Part shown: positions 5,512 through 40,828 of the stretch, in pieces
Position numbering within the stretch: the first letter of the stretch is position 1
Layout: each line of letters starts with the position of its first letter
NCBI GenBank assembly: GCA_947643225.1
Contig: CANRVH010000011.1
Location: forward strand, 1 to 40,828
Origin: an uncultured Clostridia bacterium
Lineage (GTDB): Bacteria; Bacillota_I; Bacilli_A; RF39; UBA660
Reading direction: 5' to 3'
Length of the DNA stretch: 40,828 bases
Notes under the pieces: model-generated
Seen by the model: only the letters and a program-made list of their open reading frames with translations
Database searches by the model: none
Told to the model about the DNA's origin: nothing
Made by a program: the position numbers and the translations under genes

Positions 5512-5955
5512 ATGAATAATAGTAATTATTTTTATGGTCAAGAGGGATCGAGATATTTTATCAATGTTATAAATTATCAGGATGTTATTAAAAATTATCG
5601 ATATGCATTGAAATTTTATTTTAATAATAAGTATTATTTTTTATCTGATTTAGAAAATTTTTCTAGATTTGTTTTAAAGTATTTTAAATTCTTTTCTAAT
5701 TTTGATTCTTTATTATTTAATGATAATCTAATTTCACAAGAGGATATTTTGAATTATTGTTTATATTATTATTATGGATTAGGAAATGGTCTTGGTCGTT
5801 TATCATTTAGTGAAGAATTACTTGGCATTTCTTATTCCCTTTATGAAGCTATTTCTAAAAAACATGTGGAAGGTTTTTCTAATTCTATTTATGCATTATT
5901 TTTAAATTGGTATAGAATAGATCAACTTTATACAAAAAAATATATTAAAAGTTAA
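5512..5955 (+). CDS. Hypothetical aromatic- and Asn-rich protein, 147 aa
   Basis: I do not recognise this protein. It is unusually rich in Tyr, Phe and Asn, with runs such as YYYYG and FKYFKFF, which partly reflects the AT bias. It has no clear signal peptide, no long membrane segment and no cysteine cluster. It has its own promoter-like element and a GGGGAG site before the ATG, and lies 23 nt upstream of dus. In B. subtilis the ftsH-dus interval contains coaX, hslO and folate genes, all absent here. It may be a lineage-specific gene. The full-length open frame with signals makes it likely to be translated. Confidence 0.65.
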   Translation: MNNSNYFYGQEGSRYFINVINYQDVIKNYRYALKFYFNNKYYFLSDLENFSRFVLKYFKFFSNFDSLLFNDNLISQEDILNYCLYYYYGLGNGLGRLSFSEELLGISYSLYEAISKKHVEGFSNSIYALFLNWYRIDQLYTKKYIKS

Positions 5956-5978
5956 ATTAAGACTATGTAGGGGTATTT

Positions 5979-6959
5979 ATGTGGAAGATAGAAGATTTAG
6001 AAATTAGTAATCGAGTGGTTTTAGCACCTATGGCTGGTATTTGTAATTCTTCTTTTCGAAGGATTTGTAAAGAGATGGGTTGTGGATTAATTTATGCAGA
6101 AATGGTTAGTGATAAGGCGATTACTTATGGTAATCAAAAAACAATAGATATGCTTTATATGACGGATATGGAAAGGCCCCTTGTTCAGCAAATTTTTGGA
6201 AGTGATGTAGATAGTTTTGTTCAAGCTGCTAAGTATATTGAGGAAAGTATGTGTCCTGATATTATCGATATTAACATGGGTTGTCCTGTTCCTAAGGTAG
6301 CAGTTAGGGCTCAAGCGGGTTCTGCATTATTAAAGGATCCTGATAAGATATATGAAATTGTAAAAGCAGTAGTAAATTCGGTGAGGATTCCTGTTAGTGT
6401 TAAAATTCGCAGTGGATGGGATTGTGACCATATTAATGCTGTAGAAGTTGCTAAAGTCTGTGAGAAAGCAGGAGCAAGTCTAATTTGTGTTCACCCTAGA
6501 ACTAGGAGCCAGGGATATAGTGGTAAAGCAGATTGGAGTATTATTAAATCAGTAAAAGAAGCGGTAAGTATTCCTGTAATTGGAAATGGTGATATTAAAA
6601 CTCCTGAAGATGCTAAGAAAATGTTAGATGAGACTTTATGTGATGCTATTATGATTGGTAGGGGAATACTTGGAAATCCATGGTTAATTCGAAATACAAT
6701 TTCTTATTTAGATGGGAATGATTATTTTCTTCCATCTAAGAGGGAAAGGGTAGAAATGTGTATTAGACATTTAAAGTATTTGAGTGAGTTAAAAGATGAA
6801 AAAGTTGCAGTTTTAGAAATTAGAAATCATGTAGCTTGGTACTTGAAAGGAATAGAAGGGGCTAATCTTATTAAAAATAAAATATATCAAAGTTCTCATA
6901 TTCATGATATATTACAGATATTAGAGATATTTTTGGGAGGAATGGAGAATGAAAAATAA
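5979..6959 (+). CDS. dusB: tRNA-dihydrouridine synthase, DusB type
   Basis: A flavin enzyme that reduces uridines in tRNA D-loops with NADPH. The TIM-barrel motifs of the Dus family are present: LAPMAG followed by FRRICKEMG near the N-terminus, the [10 protein letters not shown] active-site loop with catalytic Cys102, the KIRSGW strand, [13 protein letters not shown], and the phosphate-binding GNGDI and MIGRG segments of the FMN site. The length of 326 aa is normal. Its position before lysS matches B. subtilis dusB (yacF). Its end overlaps the next gene by 11 bp, so dus, the RDD gene and lysS form one translationally linked unit. Confidence 0.94.
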
Positions 6960-7575
6960 GGCTTATTTTGTACAAAGATTAGCGGCTTATATTGTAGATA
7001 TTATGTTGATTTCTGTTATTTCATCTTTATTAACATATCCTTTTACTACTAATGATACAGTGAAGAAATTAAATGAGCAGTCTGTTGAGGTTGTACAAAG
7101 TTATATTGATCAAAAGATTGATATTACTAAGTATCTTAGTCAAAGTTTAGATCTTAGTTATGAACAAGCAAAGGCAACTGGCTTTGCAAATATTATTGCG
7201 ATTGTTATTTTAGTTTTGTATTTTATTGTTTTTCAGATTTATCAAGATGGACAAACATTGGGTAAAAGATTGATGAAAATTAGAATTGTTAAAAATGATG
7301 GTAGTAGTTTAACTATGAATAATATGATCATTAGACAATTAATTAATCATTTTATTTTAGCTGATATTTTAGTTGCTATTATTACCTTATTTGGTAGGGA
7401 TTTTTATGTTTATGGTTCTATAGTAGTCGAAGTTGTTCAATATATCATTATTATTGCTACTTTGTTTATGATTATTATCAGAAAAGATGGTAGAGGAATC
7501 GCTGATTGTATTGCTGGGACTAAAGTTATTAATATAGGTCAAGAAGTTAAGGAGGAAGAAGTATGCGAGAGTTAA
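6949..7575 (+). CDS. RDD family membrane protein
   Basis: A 208-aa membrane protein with the RDD-family pattern. It begins with [16 protein letters not shown], holding the conserved R and D of the first helix. A second span lies around residues 81-100, followed by the [16 protein letters not shown] loop and further spans around 132-148 and 158-175. It ends in the [15 protein letters not shown] segment typical of the family. RDD proteins have no single agreed role; some are linked to ion or compatible-solute transport. A good ribosome-binding site (GGAGGAATGG) lies before the ATG inside dus, and it overlaps lysS by 13 bp. Confidence 0.85.
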
Positions 7576-9050
7576 GTGAACAAGAAAGGGTTAGAAGGGA
7601 AAAATTAGAAAAAATTGGAGAGTTTTGTAATCCTTATCCAGATCGTTTTTCAATTACACATAGCTTAAAAGAGGCATCATTGTTAGATGATGGGATAGAT
7701 TCAGTTGCTGTAGCAGCTAGAATTGTTTTTATGCGTAAGATGGGAAAGATGAGTTTTTTGAAACTTAGAGATATTGATGGTGAATTACAAATTTCTTTAA
7801 AAATAGATCTTTTAGGAGAGGAAGTTTATCAATTTTTCAAAAGTTATGTTGATCTTGGAGATTATATTGGGGTAAAGGGAGAAATCTTTACGACTCAAAC
7901 TGGAGAAAAAACGTTACGTGCTTTTGAGTTTCAGTTTTTGGGAAAGGCTTTAAAACCTCTTCCAGAAAAGTTTCATGGACTAACAGATCCTGAACAATGT
8001 TATCGTCATCGTTATGTTGATATGATTATGAATGAGGATACTCGTAACCGTTTTAAAATTAGGATGAATTTTATTCGTGAATTGCGTCATTATCTAGATA
8101 ACTTAAATTATTATGAAATAGAATCTCCAATTTTGAATAATAAAGCAAGTGGTGCAGTAGCTCGTCCTTTTGTTAGTCATCACCATGCTCTTGATATGGA
8201 TGTTTTTCTAAGGATAGCACCTGAAACTTATATGAAAAGAGCGGTTATTGCTGGACTTCCAAAGGTTTATGAAATTGGTAGATGTTTTAGAAATGAAGGA
8301 ATAGATGCTACTCATTTGCAAGATTTTACAATGATTGAGGCATATCAAGCTTATTATAATTATGAAGATAATATGAAATTGATTCAGGATATGTTGCAAA
8401 CGATTATTTATAATGTATTTGGAACTTTAACTATTACTGTTGGTGATAGAGAAATCGATATGTCTGGAAATTGGCCTAGGGTATCTTTTAGAGAATTGAT
8501 TTTGAAACATGCTAATATTGATATTAATGAGTATGATACTTGTGAGAAATTAGTTTCTAGAATTAAAGAGGATAAGATTGAATTGGATAGTGATACTCCT
8601 ATTGATAAGCTTGGCTATGGTAATTTAGTTGATTATCTTTATAAAAAAGTAGCACGACCTCATATAATTGAACCAATTTATTTGACAGAACATCCAATTA
8701 CCTTATCTCCACTAGCTAGGAGTAATGATGATAATCCTACTATTGTTGATCGTTTTCAATTAGTTGTTAATGGTGCAGAAATTGTAAATGGTTATAGTGA
8801 ACTTGTTGATCCTCAAGAACAGGAAAAAAGATTAATTGAGCAATCTCAGTTAAAAGAAGGAGGAGATGAAGAAGCTATGGATATGGATTATGACTATATT
8901 GGTGCAATGGAATATGGGATGCCACCAATTTCTGGTTGGGGTATGGGAATAGATCGAATTATTCAATTATTAACAGGAAGTGATAATATTCGTGATGTTG
9001 TAATGTTTCCATTAATGAGACCAATTTCAGAAAATTTGGAACAAGATTAG
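7563..9050 (+). CDS. lysS: Lysyl-tRNA synthetase, class II
   Basis: It charges tRNA-Lys. The N-terminal OB fold for the anticodon (about residues 50-145) is followed by the class II catalytic core: motif 1 near the ESPIL segment, motif 2 at CFRNEGIDATH, and motif 3 at WGMGIDRIIQLLTG near the C-terminus. The length of 495 aa is typical. Two places differ from the common bacterial form. The stretch after FRNEGI reads DATHLQDFTM rather than STRHNPEFTM, and the glycine-rich segment before motif 3 reads PPISGWGMG. These may mark a divergent LysRS subgroup. AAGGAGG lies before the ATG, within the RDD gene. Confidence 0.93.
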   Translation: MRELSEQERVRREKLEKIGEFCNPYPDRFSITHSLKEASLLDDGIDSVAVAARIVFMRKMGKMSFLKLRDIDGELQISLKIDLLGEEVYQFFKSYVDLGDYIGVKGEIFTTQTGEKTLRAFEFQFLGKALKPLPEKFHGLTDPEQCYRHRYVDMIMNEDTRNRFKIRMNFIRELRHYLDNLNYYEIESPILNNKASGAVARPFVSHHHALDMDVFLRIAPETYMKRAVIAGLPKVYEIGRCFRNEGIDATHLQDFTMIEAYQAYYNYEDNMKLIQDMLQTIIYNVFGTLTITVGDREIDMSGNWPRVSFRELILKHANIDINEYDTCEKLVSRIKEDKIELDSDTPIDKLGYGNLVDYLYKKVARPHIIEPIYLTEHPITLSPLARSNDDNPTIVDRFQLVVNGAEIVNGYSELVDPQEQEKRLIEQSQLKEGGDEEAMDMDYDYIGAMEYGMPPISGWGMGIDRIIQLLTGSDNIRDVVMFPLMRPISENLEQD

Positions 9051-9157
9051 AGATTCTTTTTATTCATTAAGATAAAGGTAGGCAGTAGTGAGATGTTTAA
9101 AGTGAGAAGTAGAGTGGTTGAAGGATTTATGTAAAAAATAAGTTAGGTGGTGTATTT

Positions 9158-21548: not shown

Positions 21549-21566
21549 ATAACAATAGTTTATAAT
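21538..21566 (+). promoter_or_regulatory. Consensus sigma-A promoter of rplJ-rplL
   Basis: Perfect TTGACA (21538-21543), 17-nt spacer and perfect TATAAT (21561-21566). The -35 overlaps the end of rplA. Start is expected near 21573. It is the best match to consensus in the window. Confidence 0.8.
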
Positions 21567-21572
21567 ATATTG

Positions 21573-21690
21573 TGTTGTTGTGCCATAGACAGTAGGTGTA
21601 TGTAAATCCTACCGAGGACAGATACTTGATTGAAGGGTTCTCGGGATATCGAGAACTTTTGTTGTGGCAGACAAATAATGAGGAGGTGAA
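21573..21690 (+). ncRNA. L10 leader (rplJ autoregulatory RNA)
   Basis: The leader has the conserved features of the ribosomal protein L10 leader: the GCCATAGACAGTAGGTG segment at about 21582-21599 followed by ATCCTACCGAGGACAG at about 21606-21621, where the L10-(L12)4 complex binds. After it comes an attenuator hairpin and the rplJ ribosome-binding site. L10 excess is expected to lower rplJL expression. Confidence 0.85.
21637..21663 (+). terminator. Attenuator hairpin in the L10 leader
   Basis: GTTCTCG (21637-21643) pairs with CGAGAAC (21650-21656), 6-nt loop, then TTTTGTT. It is a plausible premature terminator controlled by L10 binding upstream. Confidence 0.65.
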
Positions 21691-38592: not shown

Positions 38593-39843
38593 ATGAAAAT
38601 AACAAATGTAGTAGGAAGAGAAATATTAGATTCTAGGGGGAATCCAACGGTAGAGGTGGATGTTTATTTAGAAGATGGTAGTATGGGACGTGCTAGTGTG
38701 CCAAGTGGCGCTTCAACTGGTGAAAGAGAAGCATTAGAAATGCGTGATGGTGGTGAAAGATATCATGGCAAAGGTGTTATGAATGCAGTTGGTCATGTTA
38801 ATGGTCCCTTAAAGGAATTGGTTGTTGGAATGGATGCTTCTAATCAAAGTGAAATAGATGTAAAGATGATTGAAGCTGATGGAACAAAGACTAAGAGTAA
38901 ATATGGGGCTAATGCTATTCTTGGTATTAGTATGGCGGTTTTGAAGGCGAGTGCTAATTCAGAGAAGAAACCACTTTATCAGTATGTTCAAGAGAGGTTT
39001 GGTAATGGAAGACTTTCTCTTCCATATCCTATGATGAATATTCTAAATGGTGGAGCTCATGCAGATAATCAGGTTGATTTTCAGGAGTTTATGATTATTC
39101 CACAAAGAGATACACTTCAGGAAAGAGTTCGAGTTGGTGCTGAGGTTTTCCATAGCTTAAAGAGGGTTCTTAACGAAAAGGGTTATGCAACAGGGGTAGG
39201 AGATGAAGGTGGTTTTGCCCCAGATCTTCAAAGTAATGAAGAAGGTTTTGAATTAATTACTGAGGCTGTTAAAAGAGCTGGTTATGAACCAGGAGAGGAT
39301 GTTTGTTATGCTATAGATGTTGCAGCATCAGAATTTTGGGATGATGACTTAGGTAAATATAAGTTTCATTGGTCAACAGGGGAAGAATTTACTACAGATC
39401 AGTTAATTGATTTTTATGAGAAATTAATTTCTACCTATCCGATTATTTCTATTGAAGATCCTGTTCATGAAAATGATTGGGAAGGGTTTACGAAAATCAC
39501 TGAGAGATTAGGTGATCGAGTTCAATTAGTTGGAGATGATATTTTTACTACTAATAAAGAATATTTACAAAAAGGAATTGATTTACAGGCAGGAAATGCA
39601 ATATTATTGAAAGTAAATCAGATTGGAACAATTACTGAAACACTTGAAGCAATAGGGCTTGCTGTAAATAATGGATACAAAACCATTCTTTCACATCGAA
39701 GTGGAGAAACAGAGGATACAACGATTGCTGATTTATCTGTTGGTCTTGATTTGGGTCAAATTAAAACAGGATCTATGTCTAGAACAGATCGAACTTGTAA
39801 ATATAATCAATTGATAAGAATAGAAGAAAATTTGAATGAATAA
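38593..39843 (+). CDS. eno: Enolase
   Basis: A 416-aa glycolytic enzyme converting 2-phosphoglycerate to phosphoenolpyruvate. The [16 protein letters not shown] start, [16 protein letters not shown] loop, [26 protein letters not shown], the metal-binding ISIEDP and LVGDD segments, [16 protein letters not shown] signature and [10 protein letters not shown] loop are all present. It is a little shorter than the usual 430 residues because of trimmed loops. AGGAAAGAGGAT precedes the ATG. Its end overlaps the GNAT gene by 8 bp. Confidence 0.97.
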
Positions 39844-40339
39844 TTTAAATACTACTTATTTTAGTATAGGAAATTTAACTCTAAAAAAAGTTGACTTAGA
39901 TAATAAAAGTCATTTGGAATTACTCCAAAAACTTTTATTAGAAAATAATGAATTTTCTGGTTTTATTAAGCCTATTCTTACTAGTGGACATGTAAGACAA
40001 GGAGAAGGTATTAATTCGTTTCATTATGTTGTTTCTTTAGAAGATATTAATGTGGGATATGTATATATTTCTAGTCTTGATTCTTTTCAAAGGGTTTCTC
40101 TTAATTATGTGATTGAATCTTCCTTTAGAGGCAATCAATATGGAAAACTTTTATTAACAGAAATTAGTGAGTTTTTGTTTCAGAGAGATAATCGTATTAA
40201 TGAAATAGAGTTATATATAGAAAATTCTAATCGTCATTCAAAAAGAGTGGCACTAGATGTTGGCTTTAAAAAGCAGGGGTTATTTCATTATCGTATTGAT
40301 CGTTCTCTTTTTTTCCATGATGAAATTAAAAAATTTTAA
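39836..40339 (+). CDS. GNAT-family N-acetyltransferase
   Basis: A 167-aa protein with the acetyl-CoA binding motif A recognisable in a strand ending [20 protein letters not shown] (about residues 88-107), where R-x-x-x-x-G-K replaces the usual QxxGxG/A, followed by motif B with [20 protein letters not shown] and a final aromatic strand. Most related enzymes acetylate the N-terminus of ribosomal proteins or small amines; the substrate here is unknown. It starts inside eno and is probably coupled to it. Confidence 0.85.
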
Positions 40340-40349: not shown

Positions 40350-40371
40350 CTATATTTGAGTATTATAGTTT

Positions 40372-40524
40372 ATAAGCAATAGTGAATGGAGTTTTCTCCT
40401 TTTAGCGAGTCGTTAAAGGACATATGTTATATGGATATTTTAATTGTAATATTCCAAAGGATCTTTTCTACATTTTATGTAGTACTGTCCATTTCCATAT
40501 TACAATATTAATAGTATTGCTTAT
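40372..40524 (+). ncRNA. Retron-like structured RNA (candidate msr-msd)
   Basis: ATAAGCAATA (40372-40381) pairs perfectly with TATTGCTTAT (40515-40524), the a1/a2-type repeat that closes retron RNAs. Inside are TTAGCGAG (40402-40409), the same sequence that surrounds the branching G in E. coli retron Ec86, and several small hairpins: GGAG/CTCC (40388-40399), CATAT/ATATG (40421-40433), GGATATT/AATATTCC (40433-40455, one bulge) and CTACA/TGTAG (40468-40482). AATGGA (40385-40390) can also pair with TCCATT near the 3' side. A TATTAT at 40361-40366 could be its -10. The RNA ends three bases before the ribosome-binding site of a reverse-transcriptase frame. The msd stem is short for a typical retron, so it may be degenerate. 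Confidence 0.5.
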
Positions 40525-40540
40525 TTAGGAGGTAGTAAAG

Positions 40541-40828
40541 GTGTGAAGCTGGAAGTATCTTGATCAATATCAATGTAAGTAATTTTTACTATCTCTAAAT
40601 CTTATTGATGAAGATATTAGTGATAGGGCTAAAATTAAAAGGTTATATTCTATTGCTAATAATACTCAAAATAATTATAAAATATTTAAGATACTAAAGA
40701 AAAATGGAAGTTATAGAACAATTTATCAACCTAGTTACTTGCTTAATCATATTCAGATAAATATTTTGGAAAATATAATAGACCTGTTCGATAACTATTT
40801 TAAATTTGTAAAAACTATGTTATCCTAA
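40541..40828 (+). pseudogene. Retron-type reverse transcriptase, broken N-terminal part
   Basis: In one frame, after AGGAGG at 40527-40532, the reading goes GTG, TGA (40544-40546), then SWKYLDQYQCK, TAA (40580-40582), then 81 open codons to a TAA at 40826-40828. The open part contains KIFKILKKNGSYRTIYQPSY followed by LLNHIQINILENIIDL, which matches the start of the RT domain in retrons (Y-x-F-x-I-x-KK-x-G-x-R-x-I-x-x-P-x-x-x-L-x-x-I-Q). Nothing of the YxDD catalytic core is present before the window ends. The two early stops and the lack of a usable start codon suggest a decayed gene; one or more frameshifts are also possible. The downstream part, if any, is outside the window. Confidence 0.6.

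Follow-up and report, generated by a model that had tools for sequence, protein, structure and literature searches.

To our knowledge, Ec107 (Retron-Eco5) is a long-known retron that lacks a known effector or function. In Escherichia coli it is inserted between slmA and pyrE. The element is reported to replace 34 bp of intergenic sequence, and its reverse transcriptase (RT) to have a YCDD core (review, PMC6868368). The slmA–pyrE stretch was uninterrupted in 5016 of 5394 matching E. coli genomes; the other 378 did not hold it in one piece, and both loci inspected among these (L088 and L089) carry an Ec107-type RT gene alone between slmA and pyrE. Here we analyse a window of 40,828 nucleotides, the entire contig C11 of an uncultured bacterium's genome (G000; 1.44 Mb, 65 contigs), at the right end of which a structured RNA is followed by a broken RT gene. 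We conclude with high confidence that this locus is a pseudogenised, effectorless Ec107-type retron of an uncultured Bacilli lineage.

The class of the RT was assessed with an intact homologue found in the same genome, on contig C30, where the RNA is followed by a 315-amino-acid RT containing NAIPH, YSDD and VTG motifs. Against the PADLOC model RT_Ec107-like, this RT scores 415 bits (E = 4.8e-125), ahead of the type III-A models at 343 bits; the E. coli Ec107 RT scores 437 bits against the same model. The two proteins are 40% identical over 309 amino acids, and a phylogenetic tree joins the E. coli Ec107 RT to the RTs from Bacilli (support 96/90), although its exact position is unsure because the branches are long. 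Positions 40583–40828 of the window also have RT_Ec107-like as their top match (E = 2.1e-15). Because the RT falls in this known Ec107-like group, the locus is not the new retron type that the initial annotation, which was made from the window's letters, had thought possible.

The likeness to Ec107 extends beyond the RT to an intergenic site and to the lack of a companion gene, as no accessory gene stands at the E. coli locus and none is conserved across 38 loci of the present family. By inspection, the ends of the two RNAs also correspond: in both, arm a1 ends in CAATA-G and arm a2 starts with G-TATTG, and a hairpin with GCGAGTCG occupies an equivalent place. The two differ in host phylum, in base composition (the window has a G+C content of about 30%) and in site, which is eno–secG here as against slmA–pyrE, and the window copy is dead.

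Other described systems fit less well. The type III-A models are the second best for the RT, and type III-A RTs are 37–44% identical over part of their length; the examples compared, on Vagococcus lutrae plasmid pK136-2-B and on a Priestia megaterium plasmid, were assigned to that type from gene layout. They differ in that two further genes precede the RT, which in Vagococcus encode a phosphoribosyltransferase and a small protein; these accessory genes are absent at the window locus and are not conserved in its relatives. Among solved structures, Ec86 (Retron-Eco1) gives the best match by sequence (E = 2.5e-35), and it shares the RNA-then-RT layout, but no effector gene was found here. A derivation of the RT from a group II intron, a diversity-generating retroelement (DGR) or a DRT/Abi system, with an unrelated RNA next to it, would account for matches to the corresponding models. 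Those matches are weak (group_II_RT_mat, 43 bits at a cut-off of 300; Drt2, 54 bits) against the 415 bits of the retron models, NAxxH and VTG motifs can be recognized, the relatives carry a covarying RNA immediately 5′ of the RT, and a DGR-like RT on contig C6 of the same genome scores quite differently. An Rfam search of the window gave no intron match. We regard such an origin as scarcely conceivable.

The features of the RNA half of the locus are as follows.
40355–40370, + strand: degenerate promoter of the retron RNA, as predicted from the sequences of a 38-locus alignment
40372–40524, + strand: retron non-coding RNA (msr-msd), 153 nt, identified by covariance model R1 and by fold (z = −4.5)
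40372–40381, + strand: closing arm a1, exact inverted repeat with 40515–40524 as its partner
40382, + strand: probable branching G, the first unpaired base past a1 and nearly invariant (column 13 of alignment A1)
40388–40399, + strand: msr hairpin 1 (GGAG-TTTT-CTCC), from consensus structure and fold
40400–40418, + strand: msr hairpin 2 with an AGU loop (TTTTAGCG-AGT-CGTTAAAG), from covariation
40443–40506, + strand: msd stem-loop, the presumed reverse-transcribed template (consensus helices 4–6, 100% of cells paired)
40468–40482: apical hairpin of the msd stem-loop
40515–40524, + strand: closing arm a2, from inverted repeat and covariation

The two arms, ATAAGCAATA and TATTGCTTAT, form the exact 10-bp inverted repeat that had been described at the outset as closing the 153-nt RNA, and this description stands. 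The enclosed sequence folds with an energy of −37.5 kcal/mol, which none of 200 shuffled sequences equalled. In an alignment of 32 distinct loci, the consensus RNA consists of six helices with standard pairs in 99% of cells, and 14 of the 34 pairs have changes on both sides, including five of the seven consensus pairs between a1 and a2 and three pairs of msr hairpin 2, which is paired in 100% of cells. By comparison, control structures that had been shifted along the alignment paired in merely 34–54% of cells, and no shuffle matched the covariation score. Model R1, trained on 23 relatives with the window left out, matched 40374–40521 with 110.6 bits (E = 4.5e-20), and every consensus pair is preserved there. 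The RNA half of the locus remains structurally sound. An Rfam search of the window, permissive threshold included, matched no retron family, and a search of 60 genomes for solitary copies of the RNA returned just three copies, all linked to an RT.

By analogy with other retrons, the conserved G at 40382, directly after a1, is the foremost candidate for the branching base. The initial annotation had instead assigned that role to the surroundings of TTAGCGAG, by analogy with the branching G of Ec86. This assignment does not hold: TTAGCGAG, at 40402–40409, makes up one side of a conserved stem-loop, where its G alternates with A while pairing is preserved (A-U, G-U and G-C). In the Ec107-like family of the Bacilli it is a hairpin and not the branch region, and the resemblance to Ec86 is misleading.

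Downstream of the RNA, the window carries the following features.
40527–40532, + strand: Shine–Dalgarno sequence AGGAGG, of which GGAGG is kept in nearly all relatives
40541–40780, + strand: 5′ segment of the pseudogenised retron RT gene, covering residues 1 to about 79, identified by identity to relatives and by PADLOC
40779–40828, + strand: start of an inserted repeat element with terminal sequence TAGACCTGTTCGATAACTA, which recurs at 11 contig ends

The ribosome-binding site and the RT N-terminus with its signature, found here as KKNGSYRTIYQPSYLLNHIQ, had both been recognized from the letters. Three stops had also been assigned to the RT frame. Two of them belong to it, a TGA at 40544 directly past the GTG start and a TAA at 40580; the third, at 40826, falls inside the repeat element and outside the RT. 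The element begins at about 40779, interrupts the RT gene and runs beyond the end of the contig. The rest of the RT gene is found at the end of contig C33, where it shows ‘YTRYCDDMTFSG’ and ‘VVTGIVVN’ and is followed by secG, rnr and smpB. This half keeps VTG and a YCDD core, the YxDD motif expected beyond 40828 and the core reported for Ec107. It is damaged by a one-base gap that puts the NAxxH region out of frame, by a deletion of about 57 bp and by extra stop codons. The ruined RT gene of this locus combines in-frame stop codons with a frameshift, a deletion and an inserted element.

The gene breaks on C11 and resumes on C33 at the same codon, and TAATA flanks the element on both sides, a 5-bp overlap that is probably a target-site duplication. 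In a congener (G003), eno, the GNAT gene, secG and rnr are contiguous and the retron is absent, which makes it an empty site. On the basis of this gene order and of the TAATA overlap at the matching codon, we treat C11 and C33 as one locus. A different RT in G003 (34% identity) was considered as the retron of this empty-site genome and was rejected, as it has other neighbours. Eleven contig ends of G000 carry the repeat element, whose inverted ends read TAGACCTGTTCGATAACTA, on C2, C8, C11, C12, C23, C27, C33, C37, C60 and C61 (both ends), which points to at least five or six copies. Neither its body nor a transposase was found in the G000 assembly, and none of 59 related genomes searched carries it. 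This element likewise splits a nitroreductase gene across C60 and C61, where TATTA stands on either side; the element is therefore a real insertion element.

These observations bear on whether the RT only seems broken, with the stops and the element boundary as assembly errors in an otherwise intact retron. The contig does terminate within the gene, where a repeat has collapsed, in a draft as fragmented as G000. Yet multiple independent lesions, namely TGA, TAA, the NAxxH frameshift, the deletion of about 57 bp and more stops, are spread over both contigs, and the same element also splits the nitroreductase gene. An assembly artefact is thus very unlikely.

The decayed retron that had been read from the letters is borne out by intact relatives, in which the same covarying RNA precedes an open RT. 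Neither outcome that the initial annotation had named as counter-evidence, an RT akin to group II intron or DGR enzymes or intact relatives lacking the RNA, was observed. When 84,980 species genomes were scanned, 43 loci were recovered, nearly all in metagenome-assembled genomes labelled Bacilli, Bacillales, Erysipelotrichaceae or Tenericutes, and many members come from animal guts and rumen. The motifs NAxxH, YSDD or YCDD, and VTG are present in the C30 paralog and in most of 38 relatives, and every relative with a contig covering the stretch immediately 5′ of the RT has the covarying RNA there. Partner genes were surveyed at these 38 loci, with at least 2 kb available upstream in 28 and downstream in 27. 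Apart from the RT itself, no family of genes recurred at more than six of the loci, and no effector gene of the kind sought at the outset was found. The only recurrent neighbour, an ATPase-like gene of about 290–300 amino acids, stands about 1.1 kb 5′ of the RT at L028, L029, L033, L034, L040 and L061, which belong to one close clade. No relative was found in viral contigs scanned with the intact RT, and phage and plasmid collections held only RTs at less than 60% identity. On sequence grounds, the family is one of Ec107-like retrons without an effector.

The closest relatives also allow the decay to be compared between the two halves of the locus. In a second congener (G007), the retron lies directly behind eno, and its RT frame is open to the end of the contig. 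Its RNA is identical to the window RNA at 137 of 155 aligned positions (88%), and the RT coding part is less conserved than the RNA, with 49 substitutions in 232 sites. The window RT fragment is 75% identical to the open G007 fragment and 57% identical to the intact C30 RT; across the RNA and the start of the RT, window and C30 are 69% identical. These values raise the question of whether the locus is a split retron, the RNA of which is still functional, under selection and reverse-transcribed in trans by the intact C30 RT, so that one RT would serve two different msd templates. The preservation of all consensus pairs would fit such an arrangement, as would the higher conservation of the RNA, the presence of an intact paralog and a score against R1 that exceeds the 100.2 bits of the G007 RNA despite the open RT frame in G007. 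However, the window RNA differs much from that of C30. Moreover, the promoter appears weakened, reading TATTATAG where relatives have the extended −10 sequence TGnTATAAT, and recent decay of the RT by itself explains an intact RNA. Function in trans is accordingly improbable, if less so than an assembly artefact.

In the history that we favour, that of a pseudogenised Ec107-type retron, the ancestor would have been a two-part element, composed of an msr-msd RNA of about 150 nt with its own promoter and a retron RT of about 315 amino acids, that, in this Bacilli lineage, took a site flanked by the eno/GNAT genes on one side and by secG on the other. As judged from the family, an intact RT would bind the closed RNA and prime from the 2′-OH of the G after a1, and the msd stem would then be copied into multicopy single-stranded DNA (msDNA). 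Like E. coli Ec107, the element travels without an effector gene. At this locus, stops in the reading frame, a frameshift and a deletion have broken the RT, the insertion element has split it, and the repeats of that element terminated the contig. The intact C30 paralog may still provide the function to the cell. Three points weigh against this account. Model R1 gives no match to the E. coli Ec107 RNA (L088, E up to 1), and therefore the homology of the RNAs rests on the inspection described above. The junction of C11 and C33 is deduced and not sequenced through, since the assembly lacks the element's body. Finally, the synthesis of msDNA by the family is predicted from its motifs and RNA.

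The remnant lies past two genes at the right end of the window.
38593–39843: eno, left of the retron
39836–40339: GNAT acetyltransferase gene, between eno and the retron

Two further observations were made in this genome. An L10 ribosomal protein leader is located at 21565–21671 of the window (Rfam RF00557, 46.5 bits). Contig C6 (L014) carries a probable DGR at 5709–8821 and 9069–9145, whose RT has the motif IGLPLGNQSSQ. Its 77-nt repeat pair comprises a variable copy at 7460–7536, within an adjacent open reading frame of 680 amino acids, and a template-like copy at 9069–9145, and the copies differ almost only at positions where the template has T on this strand, which corresponds to A on the coding strand.

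The broken copy itself represents ordinary decay, and the interest lies in the family behind it. The window leads to a populous effectorless Ec107-type family in uncultured Bacilli, with 38 loci and an RNA supported by covariation; the genomic sites of its members vary, and one empty site has been resolved. This family makes the question of the role and spread of effectorless retrons easier to attack.
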